Of a DNA stretch of 64,000 bases, positions 2,701-58,100 are shown one piece after another. A model generated the notes under the pieces. That model was given only the letters and a program-made list of their open reading frames with translations, ran no database searches and was not told where the DNA came from. The number at the start of each line of letters is the position of its first letter. The first letter of the stretch is position 1. Position numbers and translations under genes: made by a program. This stretch comes from Lunularia cruciata. Taxonomy: Eukaryota; Streptophyta; Marchantiopsida; Lunulariales; Lunulariaceae. The DNA is taken from positions 15,600,243-15,664,242 of the forward strand of contig OX419761.1 of the NCBI GenBank assembly GCA_948567375.1. The letters are read 5' to 3'.

Positions 2701-3225
2701 CCTTGTTACTAAAGCAATGTTCGGTGTAACAGCAACGTTGACTTGTGTCTATTTTTCCTACCCATGTCTTGAAGGTACATGTATGAGGAGGCACGTATGA
2801 GGCATATCATCATATGCATTACCATTACTAACCTGTGATGGAGTTGACGTACTCCAGGACAGTAACTTCGAGGAAAACGTTGGTGCGACAATGAACTGGT
2901 TCAGGAGCTCTAATTTCTTCAGTGAATACGGAGCACAAGCTTGTATCAGAATGAAGCGTTGCGAAGAACACGGAATGGATATCGGAGCAGGATTGACCTA
3001 TTTGAAGACTCTGCGGTTCGTTTCTGTCTACACGGTGTTGATCCATCAGTGTATACAGATGGGGAACACAGAGCTCATGCGTGGCGTGATAACAGGAAAT
3101 GACACTTCCGGTTGTCATCAGGCAGAGAAAATGGGTTCTGGTTTGGTTCCTTTTCCACCTAACGCTCCCGAACCGGATGCATTCCGTAATCTTTCAAGTG
3201 CTGCAGTTACCGGTCCATCATAACA

Positions 3226-5690
3226 AACCTGTATCACCATCGTCTGAGGTAGAGATTTTGATGAAGTTCAAGAACTCTACCACGATTCGAATGGAGAACT
3301 CTCAAAATGGGAGGCAGAAGCAAACGAGTCCTTGCTTCTGGACGGGGGATGCAGTGAAAGCTTTCTTCCAGTGAGTTTGGAGCATCAATTTGACTGGCAT
3401 GAAATTGCGTGATGAGCTCCATTCGTCGTTATGCAATCTTCCTTCCCTTCAACTACTAGATCTATCCGACAACTCATTGTCAGGATCTATTCCCAAGTTG
3501 TTATGGAATTGTGTCAAGATGAAAGTACTTGATTTGTCTCAAAACAGCCTGACAGGTCTAATCGCAAAAAGATTGGTCGTATAATAAAGCTGAGAATTTT
3601 GGCGCTATATGGAAATATTCTAAGAGCGGAGATTCCATTTTCTCTGATCAGATGCTCCATGCTGCAGCGCCCTGTTCTAGCCAAAAACTATCCGACCTGG
3701 AAGATACCGCTGGAACTCGAGGAGTTGGCCGAGTTGGAACACTTGTGGTTGGACAGCAATACAGGAGAAATATCCGCCCGCTCCTTTGGGCAATTGCTCC
3801 AGGTTACAATCACTCGCCTTGTTCGAGAACACCTTGACCGGGAGGATACCATCAGAACTAGGAGAATTAGGAGAACTGCAATATTTATACTTGTACGACA
3901 ATGGACTTAAAGGTTTGATTCCCAATGCGTTAAGCAAGTTCTCCAAGTTACTGGAGCTGGATATGTCGGAAAATAGTTTGACGGGAGGAATACCATCGGA
4001 GCTTGGGGATTTAAAACAGGTGCAACACTTCGTTGTTCTTTGACAATGGACTACCGGTACTATTCCCATTTCGTTAGCAAATTGTAGGAGGTTCCAGACA
4101 CTTGATCTGTCTGTAAACAAGCTGAGGGGGAAGGTTCATCTGGAGCCAGGGCAGTTAGAAGACTTGAAGAATCTTATCCTGTATGAGAACGAACTCACCG
4201 GCAGCATTCCAGTTTCCCTAGTAAATTGCTCCGAGCTAGAGCGGCTTGATCTGGCTATAAACAACTTGGCAGGAGAGGTACCGTCAGAGCTGGGGAGATT
4301 GATAGAGTTGCGGTCTATGTACCTGGAGGACAATAGATTTACAGGTACTATCCCCTCATCGTTTGGGCAACGTTGGAGGTTGGTCGCTCTCGGGGTTTCA
4401 AGTAATCGAATCACAGGTTTCATTCCCGGGTCTCTGGGTAATTGCTCGTCATTGGAAACTCTGTATCTCCATCAGAATCTGCTTTCAGGATCTATACCGT
4501 TCAACCTCGGTAGCTTAAAGAACCTGACAACATTGCTGCTGTTTGGAAATCAGCTTTCTGGCACTATTCCTAGAAATTTGGTTTCCTCTCTACATACTCT
4601 GGAAAATCTTGATAATTCTGACAATCAGCTGGAAGGTCATATATCGCATAATGTCGCGATTTATCCTCGTCAGTTCGACTCCGACCTAAACATGATAGAA
4701 CCAATCGACTCCTGCCAAGTAGTGTCGGTCGGGAAGGGAGCTCACTGGAAATTCTCTCAGTTGCAAACAATCTGATCAGCGGTCTAATTCCTGCTTGTTT
4801 AGGTGATTGTAGAAATTTGTCATTGCTCGACTTGAGCAATAACATCAAGTTTACAATATTTAACAAATCACTCCAAGCTCTTCTGGTAGGATCCAACAAC
4901 TTGACGGGTGGATTTCCCAGTTGGATTGCGTCGCTGACCACTCTCCAGGTTCTGGACCTGCCAAACAATAGGTTTCACGGGTCCCCCCAAGAAAGCTTAT
5001 CAAATTTGCAAGGTTTCAATCGCCCAAGTGAAAACAGCATTAGCATGAACAGTGGCGAGGTCCGTAAGGAAAGGTTGGTGGTGTTTGGTAAAGGCCAAGA
5101 TCTCCATCTGGACTACCTGGTATTGCTTCGAGTTTCCTTTGAAATATCCCGAAACCATTTCATCGGTCCCATTCCTGAGCCCTTGGGCAGTCTACGCGAA
5201 TGTTGTACTTGACTCTTTCCGGCAACAGGTTTGAAGGGTCCATACCTTCCAGTCTCTCAAATCTCACCAGGTTGGAATCCTTGGATCTTTCTGACAACGA
5301 CTTGACAAGGTGAATACCAGTAAGCTTTGCGCAGTTTACGACTTTGAGTTTTCTCACTGTGAGCTTCAACTATCTCGAAGGGTCGATTCCTACTTCCATC
5401 CAACTTCAATCGATGAAGACGACAATGTTCGAAGGAAATCCTGGACTGTGCGGTTTGCCCCTGGACCCATGTAGAGAGTCTCCGAAACCAGGGAAAGCCA
5501 ATCCTGCAGCGTCGAGAGCTAAGGATATTAATGACATATTTCCATGGAGGATCAATGAGATGGTCTCCTTATCTGCGGTTTTAGTGCGAGTCGTAGTAGG
5601 CTTTAAGGTCTCAGTAGCGGTCTTCTTTGGTTCAAAGCGATTAAGACGGTTCGTGTTCAACGGATCGCCGAGGCCAAACATTATGGGGTT
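3226..5690 (+). pseudogene. LRR receptor-like protein (RLP) pseudogene, copy A
   Basis: This is a decayed cell-surface LRR receptor-like protein. In order one sees an LRRNT cap (SSEVEILMKFKNS, near 3242), plant extracellular LRRs of the form LxxLxLSxNxLxGxIPxxLG (3390-4980), an island with GKGQDLHLDYL (near 5090), final LRRs, the C-terminal cap GNPGLCGLPLDPC (5431-5470) and a hydrophobic membrane-spanning stretch with a basic end (SKRLRR, near 5633). No kinase domain follows, which places it with RLPs rather than receptor kinases. The reading frame shifts several times: frame 3 at 3390-3584 and 3786-4043, frame 2 at 3599 and 4817-5212, frame 1 from 5344. Stops lie at 3584, 4043 and 5212. The upstream segment 2820-3225 is also shared with copy B but gives no convincing signal peptide. 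In the family, such proteins act in the plasma membrane with kinase co-receptors. This copy is unlikely to make a full protein. Confidence 0.85.
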
Positions 5691-6429
5691 TCTACATATA
5701 GAACGTAAATTTACATTTTTAAGACTGTCAAAGTTCACTATTTTCTTTTACAAATTTGTTTGCATTGAGATATTTGTCCAAATTCCACCGCTGCGGGAAA
5801 ATGAGTTCCAGTTAACTTCCAAAGCATCCATTCACTTAATTGACTTTTTTAACTCATGCATAATACTGATGTCAAATTACTTTTCTTCTTTCTTTGCTAC
5901 GCGGGATGGATGCTTTGCAAGACATTTTATGAGATCAATGAGACGAGTTACTTATGTACTATTGGTTTACTGGAATAGATTCAAGCTATGTTGGTCCCAA
6001 CTTCCTCAGATAATCAGAATATGACACAGATGCTCCAGATCATTCTACTTCATGAGTCACTCTGGTATTTGTTATGATATGATACCCAATTGAGTTAATA
6101 ACTTATTTGTGATCAAGGTGATTACTAAAGGAAATGTCTCTTTGAAACAGGGCATTCTTTACGCGAATTATTCTTTTTGCCCTTACTTTCAAAGGGAATA
6201 ATTCGCATATAAGGACTTTAAACTCCCTAAACATTTCTGAGCTGCAACAAGGACCAATTTCTACCAACACCGAAGGAAGAAATAATATACTCACGTCTTA
6301 TAATCTATAATTTGAAATAATGCAACTGTTTATCATCGTGGCTGATGCTTCTGTTGGTGGAGTATAATTTTGGAACAGGGAGCACATTAAAACGTCGGGC
6401 CGGGAAAACTTAGTCTATGTTATTCGTAG
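5691..6429. other. intergenic DNA partly shared with block B, no gene seen
   Basis: Positions 5720-6060 align with about 31260-31625 downstream of RLP copy B. This confirms that the duplicated block extends past the pseudogene. The open frame running from the RLP tail to about 6024 continues beyond any recognisable domain and is not preserved in copy B. Nothing is recognised at 6060-6429. Confidence 0.55.
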
Positions 6430-12833: not shown

Positions 12834-15800
12834 ATGGCGGCTTCCAGTTCCGGGTCTGGTTCAGTTCGTGATAGCTATCAACGGGTAAATAATCCATGGT
12901 TGCTTTGCTGTCCATTTCTTTATACACTTATTGCAAAAGCATTTGCAGAGGTTCATGGTCCAATTACGTTTTGTAGTATTGAATAAGAACCTCATTGTCG
13001 GAACTTGCAGGTGAGTGATGCTATTTACGAAATTCACAGACCGGTATCTGGAGAGATCACTATGGAAGTGATATTTTTTCACGGTTATGTGTGGAACGAT
13101 TGCGAAGAGGCACACATCCAAACTTGGATGGTGAGAGACAGCTCAGCGTGTTGGCTCGGCACTTTGCTTGTCCAACAGTTCCCTCAAGCTCGTGTACTCT
13201 CAGTCTCTTACGATTCGAGTCTGAAAGTTTCTCCTTCACACGGAAGAATGGATATGCATCTTACAGGCGAGTATCTTGCTCAATCTCTGATCCATTTTGG
13301 AAACATTGGGCAGCACTGGCCGGTTGTGCTGGTCGGTCACTACGTAGGTGGGCTGGTCATGAAAGAGGTCTGTCTACAAGTGCAACGTCAAGAGCATACA
13401 CAAAGTCTGGAATCCGCGAGTATTCCAATTTTTTGAGAAATTTGAGAGGATTGTTCTCCTACGGGACACCTCAACAAGGATTCAGGATGTGCTTGGGGGG
13501 CTCATCAAAGTCTAGAAATCCCTTACTGGAATATATGGAACTCCTAAGTGCGCAAGGTGCTCGAATCAACGCAGAATTTGCAAAGTTGCGGATCCAATAC
13601 GGTTGGAAGACGTGTGGTGTTATGGAAACGGAAGAAACTCAAGTGCGAAGCCTCAACATCATACGAAACCTGCGCAAGGTAATTCTTATAATTTGCCTTC
13701 TGGTCATTCTTGTACTGTATATCACAGTACTAGTTTTAGTGTTTTTACCGTTACTCTGTATCTAAACAGAAGTTTTGGTATCATAGTAGGCTTCGGCACA
13801 GTTCCTCAATAGAGCTTTACTGCCAAGAGCTTTAGTAATTGAGATCGTCTATGATTTTCATCTATCTGTAGGTATGGGAATGGGTACCGGGATACTTTCC
13901 TCGCGATTCTTTCCAGTTGGTTGAAGAAGCATCTGCCCGACCTGACATGGACGACTTCTATTCAATTCGTGGAGTAAACCATTTTACTATCTGCAAGCCA
14001 GAGGACAAGACGTCAGATAGTTTTCAGCATTTGGTCCGTTTCTTGCAAACTATCTGTCTTGAGGAGGTATGGTCCTAAAATAAGAAAACCAGCAACTTTC
14101 AAGTCAATCCCAATTTGGTCAATGTTATCAATCCTATTGAGCTCTCAAATCTTCTGGAATTTGGGATATTGTGGGAATTCCGTCCGTTTTCTAACATGAC
14201 CTTGCTGTTTTGTCTCGTTGAGCAATTGCGGTTCTTGCTGATTCTTGTGTCTTCTTTCCATTAACCAGGAGTCAAGAAAGGTAGGATTGGAGAACCATCT
14301 TGGACTTCCTGACGGGATAATTGAGTTCGGAGATCGTATTAGGGAATTCATGGAAGTGCTCGAATTGCCAGAGGCAGGACCGAAGCAGATACTACTGGTG
14401 GGGATGGGTGGTTTAGGCAAATCGACACTTGCGAAACAAGTCCTGATGAAAATCCAAAGCCAATTTGACTATGTCTGTTTTGTTGAAATTCTCCAAAAAA
14501 CCCTCAGTCGGACAGACTTCTGGAAAATGGTTGTTGGAAACTTGTACGAAGGCAACGGGAAGCAAGCAAGCGTTGAGGTGCAGGATGAGTGGGGCACATT
14601 GAAACTATTACAGGGAAAGAAACTTCTACTGACTTTGGATGACTGTGATAATGCAGCCGACATGACGAATCACTTGAAAGGACTCTCTTGCGGAGAAGGT
14701 AGTCGTTTGGTAGTAATCTCTCGCATACAAAAGGATAGATGTGGTTTTGTAAAACATGTTCTCCCGTTCCTGTCAGATAATGATGCGCTGACACTATTCA
14801 AAGCTCGGGTTCAAAGTCCCACCTTAGAAGCGATACCCAAGGAGTTGGTGGAACAGATTGTGGGGACGTGCGAAGGGCTACCTCTCACTTTAGATGTGAT
14901 TGGCAGTTCCTTACGTGGACGGAATAATGAAAAGATATGGAGAAGCACTCTTGGTAGGCTATGTGAAGCAGGATGTATAGATGGAACTAAACAGGACAGG
15001 CTGTGGGAAAGACTCAGAGTGAGTTTTGACAGCTTAGGAGATGAAGAGAAAGCCATATTTCTGGACTTGGCTTCATTTGACATGGTACATTGCCAGTATG
15101 ATTTGACGGTGTTTGAGTCTGCGTGGAAAGATAGTGGCGGGGGAATGTCAATAGATTTAAGTTTGACCAATTTAGTGGAGAGGTCTTTCATTCAGATCCG
15201 GATTGTCAAACAGCTACGACGGTACAGCGAAGAAGATTACACAGATCCATATCCCGTAGTTTACATACATCGACAAATGAGGGATATGGGAAAGCGGATC
15301 TCGAGACCACCACAGGGAAATGCAGAGTCATGGAGAGGAGTTTGGCAACCTTACGATGTGCAGGACATTCTGACCATATATAAGGTAAGGTGATCGTTGA
15401 ACCATACTTCTTCGGAGTCACAAAGTCACGGGCACATTCATGGTTGGAAGACTACTTTCGAAATCATGCCTTGATACTTTTTTCTGGACGAGGAAGTTAC
15501 ATATGGATTACTCATTTCTTGTAATTGTACAGGGTAAAGCTGCCAACGGTGAACTCCAAGTACTATCCATGGGCAGATCAGATTCTGTGGCTGTGAATCT
15601 GGGGAGAGCATCGGAATTGCGCAGGAAGAATTCTTCTTGTTTTGACGGGCGTTTATCCAATCTACGAAGTGTACGTCTATTGAGAATGAGTGATCTGAAC
15701 CTGATCGACTCGCATCAAGCATTGCGGTTCCCTTGGCCCCTAAGGGTGCTCCACATGAGCAATTGTTCAAGAGAAGAGAGGAAAGATAGCTGGTTACCAG

Positions 15801-18800
15801 AAGCGAGTTGGCCCATCCGCGAGGAGGATGTAGGAAACCTTCATCGACTTGCTGTTCTCATATTTGATCATTGTTGCTGGGTCACTTTGCCAAGCAACAT
15901 TCACGAATGGGATCATCTCGAGGTTATCATGATTCATGCCACGGACTTGACCAGAATACCGCGGAATTTCGGTCGTCTTCCATGTTTGGAGCGATTGGAT
16001 CTTCAAGATGTACAGATAGCAGAGCTTCCCCTTTCAATTTTGGAGTTGCCATCGTTGCGAGATCTCAGGTTAGTGGACTGCTTGAATTTCAAAAGTTGGC
16101 CCCACAAACCAATACATGTTTCAAATCAACTAAATTCTCTCACTACACTTCACCTGGAAAAACTTCCTGCTCTGTCAAAGTTGCCTGATGGCTTTGGAGC
16201 TTTCGAATCTCTCACAAAATTAACCATGGTAAACCTTCCTGCATTGAGAAAGTTACCGGAGAGCTTCGGGGCTATGCTGTCTCTGCAAACATTAAAGTTA
16301 TTGGAATGTAATGCTCTGAATAGACTGCCCGATCGGTTTGGTGACCTTCGAAGGTTGGAAACCCTACAAATAACTGGGTGCAGGAGGTTGGAGAGTCTAT
16401 GTGAATCATTCGGCGGTCTGCGTGCCCTCAAGGAGCTGTCGTTACAAAACCTTGATGCTTTGGAAGTGCTTCCTCACACGATTGGGCAATTACCATCCCT
16501 TGAGACCGTTCACTTATCCTCTTGTTCTAAACTAACGATGTTGCCGGAGAGTTTTGGTGAGCTCGAATTATTGCGGGAGATATCTGTATACCAGTGCGCT
16601 TCTTTGGTACACTTGTGGGAAGACCCTAAACTGGGGGAATATGGATCCTCCGGCGAACCTAGAAATACGCTTATCAATCTGCACAGATTAACAGTATGGA
16701 TGTGTCCTAGGTTTCAAGCTTTACCACAATCTTTACGACAACTTCCATGTCTGGATTATTTGGAATCAGGGGGATGTGAAACCTTCAAATGGTCACCTTC
16801 TTGGTTAAGGCAACTCAAACGACTGAAACATTTAGGAATGGGAGGTGCGGTTGTTCCTGAAAATGCTGAATGGAAACATGAGCAGACAGAGAACCTAAAG
16901 CCACTAAGTATCGGGGATGACGACGAGTCCCCAGGCGGATCGGATTTATTTCCTGCAAAGCTTGGATGGGTAAGTGGTTCGACCTTTGAGTTTCTCGGAG
17001 ATCTTACTTCCTTGGAACATTTAGAGATAGCTGATTGTAGCTCGGTGGGTAAACTCCCGGAATGTCTTAGTCAACTAATGGTTCTGCGGAGGCTGAAAGT
17101 GCACCAATGTATAAATATTCCCGAGTCTATAGGACTGCTGAAAGCTTTAACAGAATTATCTGTAGAAGGAACTTTTACGAGCCTACCGACAGGGACGGGG
17201 GAGTTGAAATCTCTTGAGTCCTTAAGCTTGACAGGTGGACGCTTTAAGGAGCTTCCTGTTTCCTTGGGACAGCTAGCGGCAATCCGGCGTTTATACTTAA
17301 TTGAGTGTGATTACCTGACTCGTCTGCCTGACTCCTTCGGCCAGCTAACTCGCCTGAAAGATCTGGTAATTTCCCGTTGTAAGTCCCTCGAAAAGTTACC
17401 CGAGTCGTTAGGTCAACTTGCATCTCTTGATTCGTTGCAGATAGACACATGTTTTTCTCTCAAGACTATACCCCACTCGCTTGGACAATTAGCATCGTTA
17501 ACGCAATTGATAATCGACGGTTGTGTATCCCTTGCCAATGACCAGACTAACCCTAATTTTCGAGGACAGCTCAACTCCCTTTGGCGGTTAACCATGAAAA
17601 GTTGTGTGTCACTTCATAGCTTACCTGATTTTCTATTCGATCTTATATCTCTACGAGAGTTAGTCATAGAAGGATGTATGTTTCTCGATATCATACCGGG
17701 TTCCCTAGGACAACTTAAAAGTTTAGAAAGGTTAGTTATAAAGAGATCTTTATCCAATAATCTTGTGGTTGACCCTTTGCAGTATTCGTCTCTTAAACGA
17801 TTAATTATTGAAGATTGTGTATCTGTCAATCTTTTACCAGATTCCATAGGACAGCTCTCATTTCTAGAAATACTGGAGATCAAAGGGTGTGTGTCTATAA
17901 AAGATTTTCCTGACCTTTTACAGGTAACATCTCTTAAATACTAAGGGATAGAGGGGTGTCCATCCCTCGTTGTTCTACCCAACTCCATAGGACAACTCGC
18001 TTCGTTGGTACAATTTACCATAAAAGAGTGCGTATCTCTTATTTCCATCCCCGACCCTCTCCACCTCGTATCTCTTGAATATTTAGCCATAGATGGGTGC
18101 ACCTCTCTCAGGGCCATGCCGAACTCTTTGGGACAACTCAAATCCTTAACAGATTTGATCATAACAGATTGTACAACCATCAGTAGCTTACCAGATTCTC
18201 TCGGGCAACTTGCATCTCTAAAAGTTTTCAACACAAAGGGATGCATATCCCTCGAGAACCTACCGACAAGAATGGCACAGCTGAGATTACTTGAGACATT
18301 ATCCTTATCAGGATGCTTTGAAGATCTTCCCGAATGGTTGGGGCGATTTGTGGCACTTCAGGATTTAGCGGTATGGCATTGTCCCCGATTGAAATATTTA
18401 CCTGAGTCCCTGGGGCAACTCACCGCGCTGAGATGTCTCGAAATAGTCAAATGCGAGGCCCTTGAGAACCTGCCTGATTCTTTAGGGCAACTTGCATCTC
18501 TAAGAGTTTTGGACACAATGGGATGCACATCCATCAGGAACCTACCAGCAAGCATGGGACAGTTGAGATTGCTTGAGACATTGACCTTGTCGGGATGCTT
18601 TGAAGATCTTCCCAAATGGTTGGGGCAATTTGTGGCACTTAATTATTTAGGGGTAAAGCATTGTGACCGACTGAGATATTTACCTGAGTCTCTGGGGCAA
18701 CTCATCGCGCTGAGTGATCTCGAAATAGTCGAATGTAAGGCCCTTGAGAACCTGCCTGATTCTTCAGGGCAACTCACATCTCTCAAGTGGCTGTCCGTAC

Positions 18801-26329: not shown

Positions 26330-28270
26330 TTTGATACGATTAGCCGAACAACATTCAGTATTGTGTATTTGATAAGCTGAACAATTATTTTCTATAAATG
26401 GCAAGTCAAACTAGAGATACAAAGGTGAAGGCAGAACATGATCACCGTAATTAAGAGACATGTGTTAGTTGCGTTGACATCCTACCTTCGAACTCGAAGC
26501 TGACAGCTTGCTTCGTACATTCTTTGTTTCTTTTTCCACCTGTGCATAGGGCAATGACTTGTTTCTAAGGCCTCTGGGGTCGTGTTTTCCAGTGGCATTT
26601 CTTGTTGCGCTCGTATTCCCGTTTCTCGTTTCCTTTAGGGTATATTATTTGACTTGATGGTCCGTTTCTAAATACATGTTTACGTACGAGATTTCACATG
26701 TAGAAATAGTAAAAAGGAAAGAAAACGATATTCACCACTATATGGATAAAAAATATTTATATAAATATATATCTTTACCTTTATATCTTTTTTATTGTAT
26801 TGCGCCAGATTGAAGACTTTCTTCCTTCAATTTCAATAGTATATTTCTTTAACTACGGTGGAATTGTGCTTTGGGTGGGATCGAGCAGAGCCAACTTCAC
26901 ACCACTTTAGTTGGTAAGAAAGCGCCTCCAATTTGTTCGCTAGTGATGCAATATACAATTTGAAAAGCGACAAAACCTCCAACGAGGAAGTCTACGTAGA
27001 TATAGAATGAAGATGACAATTTTGCCTTTTGTCCTTGGTACGGTTTGATCAATTATACATTTTGATAGTCTTTTTAATTTGACTATGATAACCAGTAGGA
27101 TTGAAGATTATGATGTTTAATATACTATAAAAAATCTGATTCACGTCATCTTATTAAAGAAGTAATCATGTCTTAACTTGTAATAGGTATTAGGTAGAAT
27201 GTCAATTGAATTATGACTTTTTAAAATCCTTGATTTTCTCCTCATTCGACGTCATATTAAGCCTAAGGTCCGTCACTTCCAACTTTGTTAAGTGGCCAGG
27301 ATAAAGATAAATATTAAATGGAGAAGTGTTCAAATCCAGCGTAGTAACTTTTTGGTTCTTTCCAAACAAACCCAAGTAAGTGGTAATCTGGTATATATAA
27401 TATTTTACATAGAAAATTAATTATAAGGAACTTTATAATCAAAATTATTACTTAACTGAAAATTATGAAGCTGAACTCTAGTTTCACTCTCTTTCTGAAG
27501 AGAATCTTGACCTTGTTTGTCACAAATATTTCAATGATAATTCTAGAAAGATTGTGATATGCTATGGTAAATCATGATAAGAATATCCCTCACTCAACTA
27601 CAAAGCATAAGCCAAGATCTAAGCACTGCTCTCTATAACAGAAATTTTAACTTCATTAAATATAATATACCAATAATTACACTAAAAAGCTATACATATA
27701 CATTTACACACCAAGATTTACTAGAAGCTTACTATATATATAATACTATACTTAATATATGGATAATGGTATAAGAAAAAAAATAAAAAGATTGAATATA
27801 TATGTAGCTATATATATATTATGAATAATCTAGGGAAAACATAACCTTTAATGTATTCTAAAAATTAAATAAAATCGTATCAAATAACAAGAATAAGTTT
27901 CCAACGGTATAGGCTATATTCCCTTATGATTACTTTAAAGAGAACGATCTCTATGATTGATATTACTTTATTACAAATATTAGTTCTAACAGCAATTTCA
28001 TTTCCAAAATGCTATTCTAATCAATGTATAATGTCACACGAAAACATGAGGTAATATGTGGAGGAAGATGTACATCTAAGAAGCACTTAGACGGAAACAC
28101 GGGAGTATTCTCATGCTTAAAACCACTACAAAAATCAAATCAAGAGTAAAAACGGTGGAAACCCATAAAATAGACTCGCCAAACTCAAACTCTTACCACA
28201 TCAGCAACATTCACCGGATATTAATTTACATATGGGAATTTGTAACCTTTCCTTGTTACTAAAAGCAATG
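26330..28270. repeat. direct repeat, copy B of the block start (partner 850-2700)
   Basis: It is the second copy of the AT-rich leader of the receptor block. It aligns along its length with 850-2700, including 'aaacatgaggtaatatgtgg' (about 28042 and 2502) and 'cctttccttgttactaaa' (about 28246 and 2697). The TA microsatellite of copy A is absent. A (ta)-rich stretch lies at 26735-26795. Confidence 0.75.
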
Positions 28271-28759
28271 TCCGGTGCAATAGCAAAGTTAACTTATGGC
28301 TATTCTTCGTACCGATATCTTGAAGACACATGTATGAGGAGGCATGTATGAGGCATATGCATTACAAATACTACCTGTGATGGAGTTGATGTACTCCAGA
28401 ATAGTAACGCCGAAGAAGAGGTTGATGCGACAATAAACAGATTCAGGAGCTCTAATTTCTTTAGTGAAGACGCCAAACTTGTATTAGAATGAAGCGTTGC
28501 GAAGCACATGGAATGGCTATCGGAGCAGGATTCATCTATTTGGAGACTCTCCGGTTTGTTTATGTCTATACGGTTTTGATCCATCAGTGTATAAAGATGG
28601 GGAACACAGAGCTCGTGCGCGGCATGATAACAGGAAATGACAGTTTCTATTGTCATGAGGCAGAGAAAATGTTCTGGCATGGTTCCTTTTCCACCTAACT
28701 CTCCTGAATCGAATGCATTCCGTAATCTTGCAAGCGGTGCACTTACCGGCCCATCACCA

Positions 28760-31215
28760 CCACCTATATCAGCATCGTCTGAGGTAGAGATTTTGATGAA
28801 GTTCAAGAATTCTATCAACGATTCGAATGAGGAACTCTCAAATTGGAAGGCAGACCAAACGAGTCCTTGCTTCTCGAAGGGGATATAGTGCAAGGTTTCT
28901 TCCGGTGAAGTTTTGAGTATCAATTTGAGTGGCATGAAATTGCGTGGTGAGCTCCATTCGTGTTGTGCAATCTTCCTCTCCTTCAACTACTAAATCTATT
29001 CAACAACTCATTGTCAGGATCTCTTCCCAAGTCTTTAGGGAATTGTGCCAAGGTGGAAGTACTTGATTTGTCCCAACACAGCCTGACAGGTCTAATCCCA
29101 ACGGAGATTGGTGTTATGATAGAACTGAGAATTTTGGCGCCATATGGAAATATGCTAAGAGGGGAGATTCCACTTTCTCTGATCAGATGTTCCAAGCTGC
29201 AGCGCCTAGTTCTAGCCAAAAAGTACCTGACCGGGAAGATACCCAACGGATCTCGGGGAGTTGGCCGTGTTGCAACGCTTGTGGTCGGACGGCAATACAC
29301 AGACAGGAGAAATACCCGCTTCTTTGGGCAGTTGCTCCAGGTTACAATCACTCGCCTTGTTCGAGAACACCTTGACCTGGAGGATTCCATCAGAACTAGG
29401 AGAATTAGGAGAACTGCAATATTTATACTTGTACGACAATGGACCTAAAGTTTTGATTCCCACTACGTTAAGCAATTGCTCCAAGTTAAGGATTTGTCGG
29501 AAAATAATTTGACGGGAGGGATACCATCAGAGCTTGGGGATTTAAAACAGGTGCAACACTTGTCGTTCTTTGACAATGAACTTACAGGTACTATTCCCAT
29601 CTCATTAGCAAATTGTAGGAGGTTGCAGACACTTGATCTGTGTATAAACAAGCTGAGGGGCAAGGTTCATCTGGAGCTAGGGCAGTTAAAAGGTTTGAAG
29701 AATCTTATCCTTTATGAGAACGAACTCACTGGTAGCATTCCAGTTTCCCTACTAAATTGCTCCGAGCTACAGCGGCTTGATCTGGCTGTAAACAACTTGG
29801 CAGGAGAGATAGCGTCAGAGCTGGGGAGATTGATAGAGTTCCGGTCTATGTACCTGGAGGACAATAGATTTACAGGTACCATCCCCTCATCGTTTGGGCA
29901 ACTTTGGAGGTTGCTCGCTCTCGGGCTGTCAAGTAATCGAATCACAGGTTTCATTCTCGGGTATCTGGGTAATTGCTCGTCATTGGAAACTTTGTATCTC
30001 CATCGAAATCTGCTTTCAGGATCGATACCGTTCAGCCTCGGTAGCTTAAAGAACCTGACATGATTGCTGCTGTTTGGAAATCAGCTTTCTGGCATTATTC
30101 CTAGAAATTTGGGTTCCTCTCTACACGCTCTGGAAAATCTTGAGATGTCCGACAATCAGCTGGAAGGTCATATATCGCATAACGTCGCGATTTATTCTCG
30201 TTAGTTCGACTCGGACTTAGCCATGATAGAATCAATGGACTCCTGCCAAGAAGTGCCGGTGGGGAAGGGAGCTCACTGGAAATTCACGCAGTTGCAAACA
30301 ATCTGATCAGCGGTCCAATTCCTGCTTCCTTAGGTGATTGTAGAAATTTGTCATTGCTCGATTTAGCAATAACGTCAAGTTTACAATATTCAACAAAATC
30401 GCTCCGAGCTCTTCTGGTAGGATCCAACAACTTGACGGGTGGATTTCCCAGTTGGATTGCGTTGCTGACCAATCTCCAGGTTCTGGACCTGTCAAACTAT
30501 AGGTTTTACGGTGCCCCCAAAGAACGCTTATCAAAGTTGCAAGGTTTCACTTATCAGTGAAAAGTGCATTAGCTTCAACAGTGGCGAGGTCCTTAAGGAA
30601 AGGTTGGTGGTGTTTACTGAAGCCCAAGATCTCCACCTGGAGTACCTGATATTGCATCGAACTTCCTTCGAAATATCGCGAAACCATTTCATCGGTCCCA
30701 TTCCTGAGGCCTTGGGCAGTCTACGCAGAATGTTGTACTTGACTCTTTCCGGCAACAGGTTTGAAGGGTCCATACCTTCCAGCCTCTCAAATCTCACCAG
30801 GTTGGAATTCTTGGATCTTTCTGATAGTGACCTGACAGGGTGAATACCGGTAAGCTTTGCGCAGTTTACGAATTTGAGTTAGCTCAATGTGAGCTTCAAC
30901 GATCTCGAAGGGTCGATTCCTACTTCTGCCCAACTTCAATCGATGAAGACGTCAATGTTCGAAGGAAATCCTGGACTCTGCGGTTTGCCCTTGGACCCAT
31001 GTAGAGAGTCTCCGAAACCAGGGAAAGCCAATCCTGCAGCGTCGAGAACTAAGGATATTAATGACATATTGCCACGGAGGATCAATGACCTGGTCTCCTT
31101 TCCTGCAGTTTTAGTGGGAGTCGTAGTAGGCTTTAAGGTCTCAGTGGCGGTCTTCTTTGGTTCAAAACGATTAAGACAGTTCATGTTCAACGGATCGCCG
31201 AGGCCACATATGTAT
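28760..31215 (+). pseudogene. LRR receptor-like protein (RLP) pseudogene, copy B
   Basis: This is the paralogue of 3226-5690 with the same architecture. The LRRNT is better preserved here: ASSEVEILMKFKNSI, LSNWKADQTSPC (28770-28880). LRRs follow (28960-30560), then an island with DLHLEYL (near 30633), late LRRs with GPIPEALGSLRRMLYLTLSG, the cap GNPGLCGLPLDPC (30965-31004) and a single hydrophobic segment with a basic end (SKRLRQ, near 31167). Frame changes near 28960, 29260 and 30350 and stops at 28888, 30063 and 30841-30843 prevent a single product. No kinase follows. The breaks are mostly different from those of copy A, which suggests that each copy decayed after duplication. Confidence 0.85.
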
Positions 31216-31639
31216 GGGGTTTCTATATACATATCCTTTTCAGGACAGTTCAATCTTTTTAAGACTGTCAACAGTTCACTATTTTCTTCTATTTTCTTCT
31301 ACAAATTTGTCTGCATTGAGATATGATGTCCAAATTCCACCGCTGCAGGAAAATGAGTTTCCAGTTAACTTGCAAAGCATCCATTCACTTAATTGACTTT
31401 CTAAACTCATGCATAATATTGATGTCAAATTACATATCTTCTCTCTTTGGTATACGGGATGGATGCTTTGCAAGACATTTATGAGATCAATGCGACGAGT
31501 TACTTATGTACTATTGGTCAACTGGAATAGATGCAAGCTATGTTGGTGCCAACTCCCTCAGATAATCAGAACATGACAGAGATGCTCCAGATCATTCTAC
31601 TTCATGAGTCCCTCTAGTACTTGTTATGAACGTCGGGCC
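31216..31639. other. RLP-downstream sequence shared with block A
   Basis: It aligns with about 5690-6060, including 'ttccaccgctgc(g/a)gg', 'actcatgcataata' and 'gatgctccagatcattctac'. No gene is visible. Confidence 0.6.
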
Positions 31640-33654: not shown

Positions 33655-36600
33655 ATGGCGACCTCAAGTTCTAGGCCCATGACACCAGTTATCCTTTTCG
33701 CAAACGGGCTGGTTAATCCAACCCGAAAAAGGAAAGGGTTCACTGTGTATGTAATCTCTCATAACCAAATCGGCTGTTCAAATTCGAGTTCGGCGCAATC
33801 TCTTTGATCATTACAGCACCTGTTCGGTTCGAGTTTCTTTGCTAACAATGAAAGTTTGCTGGGTTTGCAGTTGGGTTTTGATGCGGTTTATGAATTATAC
33901 ACACCTGCAGTCGGACCGACTACCCTGGAAATAATATTCTTCCATGGTCATTCACGGGGAGATTGTGAAGATGCGTTCATCCCAACGTCGATGCCCCTAG
34001 ACAACTCAGCATGGCTATACATGGCTTGTGCAGCATTACCCTCAAGCTCGCATTCTCTCAGGATTCCAGTCTCCAAACTTCTGCTTCACGTGGAAGCATG
34101 GATATGTATGGCACGGGGGAATTCCTTGCCCGATCTCTGATCGAATTTGGAAAGGTTGGTCAGAAATGTCCAGTTGTTTTAGTCGGTCACTGTTTGGGTG
34201 GAGTGGTGATGAAAAAGATATGCCTGAGAGCGAGCGCAATCGCAATCTCTGGAATCGGTGGATATCTCAATTTCTTGAGAAATGGACGAGGACTGTTCTT
34301 TTACGGGGTTGCTCAATCGGGTTCAAGAATGCGCTTGGAGTCCTCCACAAAGCGAAAATAACTTTTACTCGAGTACATGGAGCTCCTAGAGTGAATGAGG
34401 ATTTTACAAAGTTGCGGAATCAATATGACTGGAAGACATACGGCATTCTGGAAGCGGATGAGTCTCAACTCCCAACTGGACCGGGAGTACTCAGCAGATT
34501 ATCCAAGGTAATCGTTCTTGTACTTATCGTGGGAAGCTATTTCGAAGCAGGTAGGCATTGTTATCGATATTGTGTGTATGTAAACATGTGAGAATTGTCA
34601 TATACACCAATGGTGTTTATTTTGTGTCGATTACTCGTGTAGATAATTTTGAGAGAATACATGCTACGCGGGGAATTTCTTTTGGTCATTACTCTTAAGC
34701 ACCTTTCTCTGATCAGTCGACCTCATTTGACAGTAAAATTGGGCCCACCACTAGGCCTAGGAGTAAAAAATATGAGGTACTTAAGGACTTCTTCTAGTCA
34801 CTGACTCACACATCGGGTTTGCTCTGACATCGGGTCTCCTGTAAGAGTGCTGATGCTCCTAAAAAAGTTTAATATTTTCCTTGGTTTCTGCTTCGAATAC
34901 CGTATTGTTTCGTTGCTGTTATGCAATATTTCCGAGCTATTAAGCACATAGGTGAAATCCTTAAGTAATGGTTTCTTATCCGGATACGCTAACAAAGACC
35001 ACTCAGTATACCATTCTTAAATGTGTCTACCTTCCATTCTCTACTTGTTTTACTGCTTTCAGTTTAAAGATAAAAAATCCCAAGTATGTTCTCGCCTTTT
35101 CTGCCCCTTCCACCATATATTTGCTGCTCTGCTGCACCGTTTTATCAATCTCTCCAACATTACCTCTTGCTGCCTCCTCACTGTTACTGTTTAAGAATCA
35201 TTTGGAACGATAGGAATGCGAAATAATAAGGGAAGGTCAGAACTATACTTTGCCTCCCCTTCCCCCTCCGTCCCATAGAGCAAACCCTTCGTAGGAATTA
35301 ACCGAGTTTGCCCTGGTACACTCATTGAGCAGACAGAACTTCGGTACGTAGAGTTTTTGAAACTACTACCCTACCCCGATTTCTGGAGACGATAGGGGGC
35401 ACTGACGAGGTCATTCCTATTCCGTGCGGAATTCTTACGAAACTTTTGCTACTTCCTTTTGGTGTTAAGTGTTGATAGACTCATGTTGATATAGAACAAG
35501 CCGGGGTAAACTTAGTACTCATAAACAGTTCTTTGAGGGTTAAGGAAGCTTGGGACAACTTCTTTTTTACACTTACCCGCGCTATGACATCAATATTGAT
35601 CAAATCTATTCTACTCTGAGTAATCAATGACGGTACTTTTGGTAGATTAATAGTCGCTTGCAGATGCAAACTAACCTGAGAGCTTGCTCACCACTATGTG
35701 TGAATAATGGTTGTGAGGGATTTACTTCTCGTACCTGGTTCATTATCTCATGTCTTCTCCAGTCTCACGGGTCTTACGATTACTGGTTTGTTTACTACGG
35801 GCCCTGTATTCCGTTCTACAATATGTCAGGCTTCGCTCCGACGAGGCCAAGAGACCATCCACTTCTCTCCCTCCATCCATCCTAAACGAAAGCACCGTCT
35901 TTTGCTCCTTGCTCGATGTTTCTCTGTTTGATGGTCTTTCCCGGCTTACAATTTCAGATGCTTAATCAGTTATGTTTTGGTTGTTATTATATGATGAATG
36001 CTAGTTCTTTGTAGGTACTATCTATGAGATGTATCAATTATGCCTTTACTTCTTCTTACCTTCATAGCCTTAGATTCTTTAAATTCCATTCCTTAGATAG
36101 ATGCAATTCATTTTGATTTACACAGGTTCATGCTTACGTTTCATACCCACTTTCTCGGTTCCATACTTAGTGGGTTCTGGATCCCTCGTTCGAAGCTTCT
36201 GCTCCCCTTTTCTCAATGATGTCACACTTCGGGCCAACCAGCCAAGATACCAATCCACTCCTCTCGTACTTCGCTCCATCCCACCGATCGTCCACTAAAG
36301 CTATGTTTGTCCCATTCGCTCTATGTTTCGCTATGCTTCCGACTGGATCTTCATATTTGCTTGATAACTCAACTCTGTTGTCAGTTTGAGATACAATGTT
36401 GCTGTTCCAACAGGTTGTATTCTTTTGATTCGATGATGTATACTAGTTCTGTGCAGGTACTTTTTTATGAAATGTATCAATTCTGTTCCTGCTTTCCATC
36501 ATTTCCACTTATTTCATTATGTTATTTCCTTGCTTAGATTAGCTTGAATTCAGTTTGCAAACCTTCATGCTTGCACTTCGTATGCACGTTCTCGGTTCCC

Positions 36601-38790
36601 TACTAAGTGGGTACTGGATCCGCTCTTTGAACGGCATTTGCTCTCATTTCTGAAATAGGTGGAACTTCCGAAAATAACTTTCACTAAACAAGATGGTCGG
36701 TGTCCTCATTTGTCGTAGATATGGAAAGTCATCCCGGCATCTCCCATTGGGGCTCTTTACAGTTGGTTGAAGAGGCATCTGCTCGTGTTGATATGGATTA
36801 TTTTTTCATGATTCAAGGAGTAGATCATTTTACTATCCGCAAGCCAGCGGATAAAACATCTGACAGTTTCCAACATCTGGTTAATTTCCTGAAAACTATC
36901 AGTGAGGATGAGGTATGGTGTGAAATATGATAACTTGCATCTTTCAAGTGCTGAACGTTGTCAGTATTCTCAATCAAATTCAGTAGTCAGATATTAAGGA
37001 ATTTGTAATATTGAGGAAATTTTCAGGGATTCTGTGGGTTTGCCAACAAACGCATATCCTTGGTATTTATATTTTCCCTCATCTGTCCTAGTTCTCTTTT
37101 CTTTTTTCCACAAACCGGGAGTCCAGAAAAGTATCATTACTGCATCATCTTGGACTTCCTCATGGGATAAACAAGTGCGGAGATCATATCAGCGACTTCA
37201 TGAAAGTGCTCAAGTTGCCAGAGGCAGGACCAAAGAGGATACTGCTTGTAGGAATGGGTGGTTTAGGAAAATCGACACTTGCGAAACAAGTTCTGATGAA
37301 AGTCCAAAGCCAGCTATACTATGTCTGTTTTATTGAAATTCTTCAACAAACTCAGACTGAGAAAGATTTCTGGGATCTGGTTGTTGAAAACTTGTACGAA
37401 GGCAACGGGAAGCAAGTCAGCGTTGAGTGCAGGATGAGTGAGCGACATTGAAACTATTACCGAGAAAGAAAGTCCTACTGATGCTGGGTGATTATGATGA
37501 TGCAACCGATCTGATGTATCGCTTGAAAGTACTGTCTTACAGAGAAGGTAGTCGTTTGATAGTAATCTCTCGAATTCACAAGATAGAAGTGGTTTCGTCG
37601 AACATGTTCTCCCTTCCTGTTACATAAGCATGCGCTGACACAATTCAAAGCTCGTGTTCAAAATCCCAACTCAGAATACATACCCAAGGAGTTGGTAGAA
37701 CAGATTGTGAAGACCTGCGAAAGGTTCCGTCTCATTTTACATGTGATTGCCAGTTCCTTACGTGGACGAAACCATGAAAAGATTTGGACAGGCACTCTTG
37801 GTAGGATGTTTGAAGCAGGATGTATAGATGGAAGTAAACCGGACAGGTTGTGGGAAAACTCAGAGTGAGCTTTAACAGCTTAGGAGATGAAGGGAAAGCC
37901 ATATTCCTGGACTTGGCTTCATTTGACATGGTGCATCGCCAGTATGATTTGACTGTCTGTGAATCTGCGGGGAAACAGAGCACCGTGGAATGTCAATACA
38001 GTTAAGTTTGACCAATTTAGTGGAGAGGTCTCTCATTTAAATCCGGATTGTCAAATAGCTACAACCATACCCCTTAGCGTACATTCATCGACAACTGAGG
38101 GCTATGGGGACGATGATCTCGAGACCACAACAAGGAAATGTAGAGTCAAGGAGAGGAGTTTGGCAGCCACGCGATGTCGAGGATATTCTGGCCGAATACA
38201 AGGTAAGATGAATATTGAACCTACCAACAAGCATGGGACAGTTGAGTTTGCCTGCGACATTGTCCTTATCGGGATGCTTTGAAGATCTCCCCGACTCGTT
38301 GGGGCAATGTGTGGCACATAAGGATTTAAAGGTAAAAACTTGTATCATTAAAAGATCTGTTTCTGAGTCAGTTGATAAAGTACCTGAATGTCTTGGACAA
38401 CTCGCATGTTCAGAGCTAGAGTCTTTCGCTAGTCTACCAAGAAGTCTCAGACAGCTTGACATGCCCAGACAAGTCGACGAAGATGGCTGAAAACTTTGCG
38501 CATCTCCCCGACTGGCTTTAATATAAACTCCAAGAGACAAATAATTAAACTCCAACTTCTCGCAATAGTCTCAGATATCTTCGGTGTTTAACAGTCGCAA
38601 ATGAATTCTGTGAGGATCGTATGGAGTGCCTAAAATTGGGCCAGTGCCAGCGCGTTACAAGCTAAGTGTACTACGGTATGATTATTTCATGCAGCTGATG
38701 TCGAAATATGTTTATGTAACTGGCCAGACATCTTCACGAATAACTGGAATCTCTTTCGAGATTGCAGTCGAAGATAATTAGCTGTTGAAA
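33655..38790 (+). pseudogene. HNL-B: heavily decayed alpha/beta-hydrolase-NB-ARC-LRR pseudogene
   Basis: A possible first exon starts MATSSSRP at 33655. The hydrolase exon is 33871-34507 (637 bp, frame broken) and keeps IIFFHG and the elbow GHCLGG with Cys (TGT, 34191-34193). Exon 3 (about 36719-36912) keeps VDHFTIRKP, with the catalytic-type His. NB-ARC spans about 37119-38202, with GMGGLGKSTLAKQV intact. Frameshifts and stops follow from about 37430, and the intron acceptor before it reads 'ccgg' where the paralogues have 'ccagg'. The LRR exon is reduced to about 0.3 kb (38215-38500, GCFEDLPDSLGQ, KVPECLGQLACSELESFASLP) plus a short 3' end near 38700-38780. The deletion joins intron 4 directly to a mid-LRR sequence. 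The intron after the hydrolase exon has grown to about 2.2 kb. No functional product is expected. Confidence 0.85.
34620..36700. repeat. inserted DNA inside HNL-B with about 430-bp imperfect tandem units
   Basis: The corresponding introns of HNL-A and HNL-C are about 0.2 kb, so most of this is insertion. Within it, about 35740-36130, 36130-36560 and 36560-36690 show repeated landmarks: 'tctcggttcc.tact(t/a)agtgggt', 'ctggatcc', 'atgatg(a/t)at.ctagttct' and 'atgtatcaatt'. Short open frames such as 35658-35885 are not conserved among units. No transposase or other protein domain was recognised. Confidence 0.55.
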
Positions 38791-55101: not shown

Positions 55102-58100
55102 ATGGCGGCTTCCAGTTCTGGGTCTGGTTCAGTTTGTGGTAGCTATCAGCAGGTATTGCTCTAATCCATGATTGCTTCGCTGCTCAATTCTTTATACATT
55201 AACTGTAAAAGCATTTGCAGGGGTTCATGGGTCCAATTACGTTTTGTAGTATCGAATAAGAACCCTCATTGTTGGAACTTGCAGGTGAGTGATGCTATTT
55301 ACGAAATTCACAGACCGGTATCTGGAGAGATCACTATGGAAGTGATATTCTTTCACGGTTATGCGTGGAACGATTGCGAAGAGGCACACATCCAAACTTG
55401 GATGCTGAGAGACAACTCAGCGTGTTGGCTCGGCACTTTGCTTGTCCAACAGTTCCCTCAAGCTCGTGTACTCTCAGTCTCTTACGATTCGAGTCTGAAA
55501 GTTTCTCCTTCACACGGAAGAATGGATATGCATCTTACAGGCGAGTATCTTGCTCAATCTCTGATCCATTGTAGAAACATTGGCCAGCACTGGCCGGTTG
55601 TTCTGGTCGGTCACTGTGTAGGTGGGCTGGTCATGAAAGAGGTCTGTCTACACATGCAACGTCAAAGTGCAAGCACAAAGTCTGGAATCCGCGAGTATTC
55701 CAATTTTTTGAGAAATTTGAGAGGATTGTTCTTCTACGGGACACCTCAACAAGGATCCAGGATGTGCTTGTGGGGTTCATCAAAGTCTAGAAATCCCTTA
55801 CGGGAATATATGGAACTCCTAAGTACGGAGAGTGCTAGAATCAACGCAGAATTTGCAAAGTCGCGGATCCAATACGGTTGGAAGACGTGTGGTGTTATGG
55901 AAACGGATGAAACTCAAGTGCGAAGTCTCTCCATCATACGAAACCTGCGGAAGGTAATTCTTGTAATTTTGCCTTTTGGTCATTCTTGTATTGTATATCA
56001 CAACACTAGTTTTAGTATTTTTACCATTACTCTGTATCTAAACAGAAGTTTTCGTATCATAGTGGGCTTCGGCACAGTTCTTCAGTAGAGCTTTACTGCC
56101 AAGAGTTTTAGTGATTTAGATGGTCTATGATTTTCATCTGTCTGTAGGTATGGGAATGGGTATCGGGATACTCTCCTCGCGATTCTTTCCAGTTGGTTGA
56201 AGAAGCATCTGCCCGACCTGACATGGACGACTTCTGTGCAATTCGTGGAGTAGACCATTTTACTATCTGCAAGCCAGTGGACAAGACCTCAGATAGTTTT
56301 CAGCATTTGGTCCATTTCTTGCAAACTATCTGTCTCGAGGAGGTATGGTCTAAAATAAGAAAACCAGTAACTTTCAAGTCAATCCCAATTTCGTCGGTTT
56401 TCTAAGATGACCTTGGTGTTTTGTCTCCTTGAGGAATTGCGGTTCTTTGCTGATTCTTGTTTCTTCTTTCCGTCAACCAGGAGTCAAGAAAAGTAGGATT
56501 AGAGAACCATCTTGGACTTCCTGACTGGATAATCGAGTTCGGAGATCGTATCAGCGAATTCATGGAAGCGCTCAAATTGTCAGAGGAAGGATCGAAGCAG
56601 ATACTGCTGGTGGGAATGAGTGGTTTAGGCAAATCGACACTTGCGAAACAAGTTCTGATGAAAATCCAAAGCCAATTTGACTATGTCTGTTTTGTTGAAA
56701 TTCTTCAACAAAATCTTAGTAGGAAAGATTTTTGGAAACTGGTTGTTGGGAACTTGTACGAAGGCAACGGGAAGCAAGTCAGCGTTGAGCTCCAGGATGA
56801 GTGGGGCACATTGAAACTATTACAGGGAAAGAAAGTTCTAATGATGTTGGATGATTGTGATGATGCAACCGATATGACGAATCACTTGAAAGGACTCTCT
56901 TACGGAGAAGGTAGTCGTTTGATAGTAATCTCTCGGATTCAAAAGGATAGAAGTGGTTTCGTCAAACATGTTCTCCCGTTCCTGTCACATGACCATGCGC
57001 TGACACTATTCAAAGCCCGTGTGCAAGGTTCCACCTTAAAAGCAATATCCAAGGAGTCGGTGGAACAGATTGTGAAGACGTGCGAAGGGCTACCTTTGAC
57101 TTTAGGTGTGATTGGTGCATACTTACGTGGACGGAACGATGAGAAGATTTGGGAGAGCACTCTCGGTAGGTTGCGTGAAGCAGGATGCATAGATGGAAGT
57201 AAACAGGACAGGTTGTGGGGAAAACTCAGAGTGAGTTTTGACAGCTTAGGAGATGAAGAGAAAGCCATATTTCTGGACTTGGCTTCATTTGACATGGTGC
57301 ATCGCCACTATGATTTGACTGTGTTTGAATCTGCGTGGAAAGCGAGTGGCTGGGGAACGTCAATATATTCAAGTTTGACCAATTTAGTGGAGAGGTCTTT
57401 CATTCAGATCCGGATTGTCAAACAGCAATATCCATACCCCGTAGCTTACATACATCGACAAATGAGGGATATGGGAAAGCGGATCTCGAGACCGCCACAG
57501 GAAAATACAGAGTCATGGAGAGGAGTTTGGCAACCAAGCGATGTGCAGGACATTCTGACCATATACAAGGTAAGGGGATCGTTGAACCATACTTCTTCGG
57601 AGCCACAAAGTCACGGGCACATTCATGGTTGGAAGACTACATTCGAAATCATGCCTTGATACTTTCTTCTGTACGAGAAATGTCCATGTGGATTACTCAT
57701 TTCTTGTAATTGTGCAGGGTACAGCTACCAACGGTGAACTCCAAGTACTATCCATGGGCAGATCAGATTCTGTGGGTGTGAATCTGGGGATAGCATCGGA
57801 ATTGCGCAGGAAGAATTCTTCTTGTTTTGACGGGCGTTTATTTAATCTACGAAGTTTACGTCTATTGAGAATGAGTGATCTGAACCTGATAGACTCGCAT
57901 CAAGCATTGCGGTTCCCTTGGCGGCTCAGCATGCTCCACATGAACAATTGTTCCAGAGGAGAGGGGAAAGATAGCTGGTTAGCGGAAGCGTGTTGGCCCA
58001 TCCGAGAGGAGGACGTCGGGAACCTTCCTCGACTTGCTGTTCTCATCTTTGATCATTGTTGCTCGGTCACTTTGCCAAGCAACATTCAGGAATGGAATCA

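Follow-up and report, generated by a model that had tools for sequence, protein, structure and literature searches.

The window analysed here is a 64,000-nucleotide stretch of the genome of the liverwort Lunularia cruciata (contig OX419761.1, positions 15,600,243 to 15,664,242). It carries three copies, HNL-A, HNL-B and HNL-C, of a gene of the HNL class of liverwort nucleotide-binding leucine-rich repeat receptors (NLR), described as joining an alpha/beta-hydrolase, an NB-ARC domain and leucine-rich repeats (LRR) in one gene (Xue et al. 2012, PMC3352924). At the nucleophile elbow of the hydrolase domain of HNL-C, a Cys (Cys128) takes the place of Ser. As judged from sequence comparisons, this Cys is neither a peculiarity of one place nor the original state of the HNLs, but a derived state shared by a large clade of paralogues. 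The reading that we favour, to which we give slightly less than an even chance, is that the domain is a Cys-Glu-His hydrolase or acyl-transferase serving as the output domain of an NLR.

An earlier note, made from the letters of the window, had reported Cys at the elbow of HNL-C and HNL-B and Tyr at that of HNL-A, and the codons read directly (TGT, TGT and TAC; Table 1) bear it out. All three codons are embedded in the motif VGH-x-[VL]-GG. This match is not due to chance, because the 669-nt exon of HNL-C that carries it has a 100% identical genomic copy and because the DNA pattern for VGH-C-x-GG occurs at 145 places of the genome, as compared with two for a reversed control. HNL-C itself is predicted as five exons, each of a length divisible by three, which encode 2135 residues without an internal stop, the splice sites being predictions from the sequence. 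On this model it is an intact hydrolase-NB-ARC-LRR gene, and the sole intact one of the three copies in the window. Both the NB-ARC domain and the C-terminal LRR domain expected of the class were found (PF00931 and PF23598). The three phase-0 introns conserved in the class, that is, within the hydrolase, between the hydrolase and the nucleotide-binding site (NBS), and after the NBS, are present in the predicted model, and one further phase-0 intron follows the short first exon.

A structure model of HNL-C reached a mean predicted local distance difference test score (pLDDT) of 79.7; a single-sequence model (pLDDT 32.5) was discarded. The retained model and its fold comparison by Foldseek and VIA support an N-terminal alpha/beta-hydrolase domain, with a nucleophile elbow, an acid after a strand and a His after the last strand, places that are taken by Cys128, Glu223 and His277, respectively. 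The earlier note had assumed that this Cys sits at the nucleophile elbow, and the model agrees. A Pfam scan of the domain gave sub-threshold matches only, the best being Thioesterase (E 0.0071, below the cut-off). Up to the limit of E 10, and with HMMER filters that drop most weak matches, the dienelactone hydrolase family was not among the three Pfam matches, and neither was DUF676 (PF05057). Of the NCBIfam and PADLOC scans, one returned nothing and the other a weak DUF626_VIII match (0.0056), and phmmer found no match to the domain in the PDB. SERAC1 was unnamed among the 50 best rows of Foldseek and of VIA, an absence that was not taken as evidence. The distant paralogue L097 scored above the DUF676 cut-off (21.9 vs 20.3).

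The 566-Mb genome in which the window lies was searched with exon 2 of HNL-C, which gave 575 candidates. Of these 575, 150 were scored, all with an E value of 5.6e-32 or better, and the 68 nearest loci (L025-L092) were fetched from the top of the list, the HNL-A piece alone being omitted. The elbow residue was Cys in 59 of the 68 hydrolase exons, Ser in seven, Gly in one and Asp in one; clustering at 95% identity reduced them to 39 clusters, with Cys in 34, Ser in three, and Gly and Asp in one each. Column 128 (87% Cys) was thus less conserved than the invariant V125, G126, H127, G130 and G131, and more so than the median column (66%). Glu223 was retained in 67 of the 68 loci. The place of His277 was located in 64 loci, with His in 56, Tyr in six and Asn in two, and was not found in the other four. 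In these 64 loci, the elbow/base pairs were Cys/His 49 times, Ser/His six, Cys/Tyr five, Cys/Asn two, and Gly/Tyr and Asp/His once each. No stop interrupted 65 of the 68 matched exon stretches, and a P-loop motif was seen in some frame in 58 of the 68 fetched stretches. The loci with Tyr at the His place are L055, L068, L069, L071, L083 and L089, those with Asn are L050 and L051, and seven of these eight keep the Cys, the remaining one having Gly; it is possible that the eight are constrained pseudo-enzymes. A second Cys of HNL-C, C138 (window 55645-55647), lies ten residues past the elbow and is invariant in the 68 exons, and C64 is 97% conserved.

The count of 59 in 68 had suggested Cys as the HNL-wide state, a view that we dropped because the nearest-match set is biased and pattern scans place Ser in distant paralogues. 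In the whole genome, VGH-S(AGY)-x-GG was found at 159 places (control 3) and VGH-S(TCN)-x-GG at 38 (control 18). The places of the VGH-C and VGH-S(AGY) patterns were listed for the first 100 of the 145 and of the 159, and the lists are complete for contigs C1, C2, C6, C7, and C8 below 2.95 Mb. On these contigs, 92 exon-2 places, drawn from two exon searches (each with 150 candidates scored, out of 575 and 570) and hence representing part of the family, comprised 43 Ser-AGY, 30 Cys, no Ser-TCN and 19 that matched no pattern. By these counts, Ser is no rarer than Cys across the wider HNL set. Six more distant exons were evenly divided, with Ser in L093, L095 and L097 and Cys in L094, L096 and L098. 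The earlier note had reasoned that Ser in most other HNLs would make the Cys a local change; Ser does lead among the 92 places, with 43 against 30 Cys and 19 unassigned, but the Cys is not a local change.

Some of the pattern places stand in repeats. At least 20 of the 145 VGH-C places lie in two tandem arrays, at C8:4512623-4514440 and C7:69077138-69078198, where VGHC.GG recurs mostly at a 129-base and a 149-base spacing, respectively (13 and 7 listed places); these are probably tandem repeats and not genes, and would inflate the genome-wide Cys count. At C11:15296308-16256392, 25 HNL-type hydrolase-exon places are found within ~1 Mb, some of them 100% identical, a pattern that we read as a recent tandem expansion. 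The HNL-C exon of the window is 100% identical to the copy at C11:15806424. Near-identical VGHSFGG elbows occur in many copies, mostly tens of kb apart, at C1:12654025-13457382, C2:74138405-75734960 and C7:63817082-65504587. Part of these copies are within hydrolase exons, and therefore the Ser branch has large expansions of its own.

With the HNL-C protein alone as a query, no relative was found in bacterial genomes, viral contigs or plasmids. A probe alignment including two constructed rows led to nine bacterial loci, which were confirmed by tblastn with HNL-C and whose search patterns avoided the elbow and the His motif; the probe alignment found no relative in viral contigs. Three viral-contig loci were found by two patterns, one spelling HSLGG and the other the His motif, and are thus a biased sample. 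Twelve of 23 plasmid matches, found with the Ser-type locus L006, were also included. All of the resulting 24 microbial relatives, several of which are close to each other, have Ser at the elbow, always with an AGY codon, one base from the TGY of Cys, and all 24 have the His. The acid column is filled in 22 of the relatives, by Glu in 20 and by Leu in two, and is a gap in the other two. DUF676 was above its curated cut-off in four of the five bacterial proteins scanned (L001, L004, L005 and L006); for L002, WD40-type models occupy the rows shown in the Pfam scan. Fusions to an NTPase were seen in L004 (AAA_16), L014 (AAA_35) and L013 (NB-ARC by record annotation, together with WD40 repeats). 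In L013 (203-4438) and L004 (2944-4602), an N-terminal hydrolase of this kind is followed by the annotated NB-ARC and the AAA_16 NTPase, respectively, so that bacteria have a domain layout corresponding to that of the HNLs. Some of the Ser-type relatives belong to ABC-3C systems: Pfam found the CTD9 domain of these systems in L005 and L006, and L016 and L017, on conjugative plasmids, are annotated as part of such systems.

The direction of the Ser/Cys change was read from a tree of 68 rows, made of 52 non-redundant open exons of the nearest set, the six distant exons and 10 microbial sequences as root. The HNL exons form one group (100/100), from which the Ser-bearing L097 splits off first (98/85), and the 52 nearest-set exons form one clade (98/99) in which 46 have Cys. 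The tree needs a minimum of seven changes of elbow state. Four of them fall within the 52-exon clade (two from Cys to Ser and one each from Cys to Gly and from Cys to Asp), and the same four were obtained in a second tree; the remaining three lie among unsettled deep forks where long branches meet, as the program warned. From what is most likely a Ser ancestor, Cys would have arisen on one to three occasions and gone back to Ser at least twice, although a single early origin followed by losses is conceivable. The Ser codons of the HNLs are AGT in L035-L037, L081 and L082, TCT in L085, TCC in L092, and AGY in the 43 places of the wider set. The deeper HNL ancestor most likely had Ser, and we take Cys to be derived because the distant paralogues often have Ser and the 24 microbial relatives all have Ser AGY. 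The proposal of the earlier note that Cys is ancestral thus holds for the window's own clade, in both trees, but not for the HNLs overall, given the Ser of the distant exons and of the microbial relatives.

The other two copies in the window, HNL-A and HNL-B, are broken, a point absent from the earlier note. HNL-A has one base fewer than HNL-C ~50 nt past the elbow (after about 13391), and a stop codon interrupts its LRR. Exon 2 of HNL-B could be aligned only as three pieces in three frames, with exon 3 ~2.2 kb downstream. Exon 2 of HNL-A is 99.55% identical to those of L032 and L033, both of which are open in exon 2 and have the elbow codon TGC. On this comparison, the Tyr of HNL-A goes back to a single recent G-to-A mutation in a copy that is broken, and is not a natural functional variant. 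Since the copy is broken and its sisters have TGC, one base off, the Tyr is uninformative on function. The view of the earlier note that the Tyr came later agrees with the sister copies. The comparison of HNL-A with HNL-C had at first suggested that two bases changed at the elbow, from TGT to TAC, a reading dropped in view of the TGC in the closest copies of HNL-A. The stretches 2444-6077 and 27985-31629 of the window, which lie upstream of HNL-A and HNL-B, are 88% identical; they hold LRR receptor-like open pieces in several frames and are part of the window's large repeated blocks.

We estimated the ratio of nonsynonymous to synonymous substitution rates (dN/dS) for 13 pairs of exon 2 chosen by hand, and it was 0.16-0.55 in the nine pairs with dS above 0.1. 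The hydrolase domain is thus under purifying selection, also where the proposed base is missing. This selection, the predicted gene structure, the modelled place of the residue, the family distribution and the codon path are what the analysis shows, whereas catalysis, substrate and activation are inferred. On the favoured reading, HNL-C has an N-terminal alpha/beta hydrolase with kinship to DUF676-type Ser esterases, in which an ancestral Ser (AGY) nucleophile became Cys (TGY) by a one-base change in a large paralogue clade, with the Glu kept and the His mostly kept. In the most likely mechanism, activation through NB-ARC and LRR would bring hydrolase domains together or uncover them. The Cys-Glu-His triad would then attack an acyl (thio)ester via a covalent thio-acyl intermediate, and the domain, working as a hydrolase or acyl-transferase on a lipid or an acylated protein, would start the immune output. 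Paralogues with Ser would perform the oxyester version.

Several observations weigh against a Cys enzyme, and part of them would be expected if the domain were a non-catalytic pseudo-hydrolase that binds a lipid or a partner or oligomerises, in the manner of the lipase-like EDS1 (a comparison raised in PMC10952240), with the Cys tolerated or structural. The His is replaced in eight of 64 loci (Tyr in six, Asn in two), seven of which keep the Cys, and one locus each has Gly and Asp at the elbow. The pair L068-L055, with Tyr for His in both, has a dN/dS of 0.24, and such constraint without the proposed base speaks against catalysis as the sole role. Engineered Ser-to-Cys hydrolases are reported as mostly inactive unless changed elsewhere (PMC6642262). 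All these points favour a scaffold, which we regard as a serious rival of the Cys enzyme, plausible though not probable. Against it, Glu is found in 67 of 68 loci, Cys or Ser in 66 of 68 and His in 56 of 64, and a scaffold need not stick to the two usual nucleophiles. This last argument is weakened since a single base separates the codons of Ser and Cys and makes their exchange the easiest mutation, which also counts against a Cys enzyme.

The same is true of the four most recent of the 13 pairs, with dS below 0.07, in which dN/dS was 0.62-1.03. These values, and the broken state of HNL-A and HNL-B, are what neutral drift in a fast-expanding NLR family would produce, the domain decaying and the elbow residue being without meaning. 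We consider this improbable, as 65 of 68 exon stretches are free of stops, the other nine pairs have a dN/dS of 0.16-0.55, and V125, G126, H127, G130 and G131 are invariant in the 68. More improbable still is that Cys128 is a regulated thiol, a target of disulfide formation, S-acylation or nitric oxide that would switch the domain on or off, and not a nucleophile: partner thiols do exist in C138 and C64, but the Ser in seven of 68 near loci and in 43 of 92 wider places is incompatible with a thiol switch in those copies. Going beyond the Cys-Glu-His enzyme of HNL-C, a wider proposal is that of a one-genome NLR family with Ser(AGY)/Cys(TGY) switching by single-base changes, the acid and the base being mostly retained, in which sister receptors may use two acyl chemistries, hydrolysis and thio-acyl transfer, and the Tyr sub-branch would be a constrained pseudo-enzyme. 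We regard this proposal as plausible though not probable.

Table 1. Positions in the window of the features of HNL-A, HNL-B and HNL-C.
Feature	Position	Strand	Basis
HNL-A hydrolase exons 2-3, with 1-nt deletion relative to HNL-C	13008..14066	+	comparison with HNL-C
Elbow codon TAC (Tyr) in the broken copy HNL-A	13341..13343	+	codon read; TGC in nearest copies
In-frame TAA in the LRR of HNL-A	17942..17944	+	sequence reading
Remnants of the HNL-B hydrolase, with exon 2 split over three frames and exon 3 ~2.2 kb on	33880..36912	+	alignment
Elbow codon TGT (Cys) in the broken copy HNL-B	34191..34193	+	codon read
HNL-C exon 1, start codon, 17 residues	55102..55152	+	phase 0, GT donor; predicted
HNL-C exon 2, with most of the alpha/beta-hydrolase domain	55285..55953	+	100% identical exon elsewhere in the genome
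Cys128 (TGT), nucleophile elbow	55615..55617	+	codon read; model: between strand 105-110 and helix 112-130
Glu223, proposed triad acid	55900..55902	+	model: end of strand 200-206; conservation in HNL loci and microbial relatives
HNL-C exon 3, last part of the hydrolase	56148..56342	+	gene model; phase-0 intron within the hydrolase domain
His277, proposed triad base	56256..56258	+	model: after strand 251-255; conservation in HNL loci and microbial relatives
HNL-C exon 4, NB-ARC domain	56481..57569	+	PF00931, E 2.6e-26, scanned on open reading frame 56454-57659
HNL-C exon 5, LRR domain and stop codon	57718..62121	+	PF23598 LRR_14, E 5.6e-97

Hydrolase-NLRs are known from bryophytes (PMC11218826, PMC12512272), and two hydrolase domains of M. 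polymorpha gave hypersensitive response-like reactions in N. benthamiana (PMC11218826); in the part of that paper available, a hydrolase active-site mutant is not described. How bryophyte hydrolase-type NLRs trigger immunity is presented as an open question (PMC11218826, PMC10952240). The HNL class is thus already known, and the occurrence of both Ser and Cys nucleophiles in the NLR family of one genome is new as far as our searches of the open-licence PMC literature go, in which we found no paper naming the HNL nucleophile. The clade-wide replacement of Ser by Cys suggests that the chemistry by which immunity is switched on has changed, and the Cys, Ser and broken-triad versions that stand side by side are natural variants with which the enzymatic nature of the domain could be settled. 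If the Cys forms do work, they would represent a natural route for exchanging a Ser for a Cys nucleophile and would make acyl transfer or thioester chemistry a likely form of immune output. Switching between Ser and Cys across the family would amount to a natural experiment on a replacement that in engineering usually destroys activity.

HNL-C resembles the HNL class as described in PMC3352924 in its domain order and in the three phase-0 introns described above. That paper uses neither the word serine nor the word catalytic, and we found no nucleophile residue given there; here one large clade has Cys and others Ser in the same genome. The bacterial fusions of a hydrolase with a STAND or NB-ARC-type ATPase (Gloeothece L013, Nostoc L014 and Acidobacteria L004) share with the HNLs the N-terminal hydrolase followed by an NTPase; unlike HNL-C, they have a Ser nucleophile, and L013 has WD40 repeats in place of LRR. 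A Cys nucleophile at the elbow occurs naturally in some alpha/beta hydrolases, among them dienelactone hydrolase. HNL-C is like dienelactone hydrolase in this Cys, but differs from it in having no Pfam match to that family up to E 10, Glu as its acid and an NLR context. The title of PMC9853848 names a Cys-His-Asp triad in an alpha/beta hydrolase.

The hydrolase of bryophyte NLRs has been called sesB-related, and a sesB-type lipase domain occurs in human SERAC1 (PMC4986451). With DUF676/SERAC1/sesB-like hydrolases, HNL-C has in common the elbow and the His motif shared with the 24 microbial relatives, and the Glu shared with 20 of 22. It differs from DUF676, a putative serine esterase family, in lying below the reach of the profile and in having Cys for Ser. 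By their description, fungal NLRs with sesB-like or patatin lipase domains are like the HNLs in that a hydrolase is the N-terminal effector domain of the NLR (PMC4986451).
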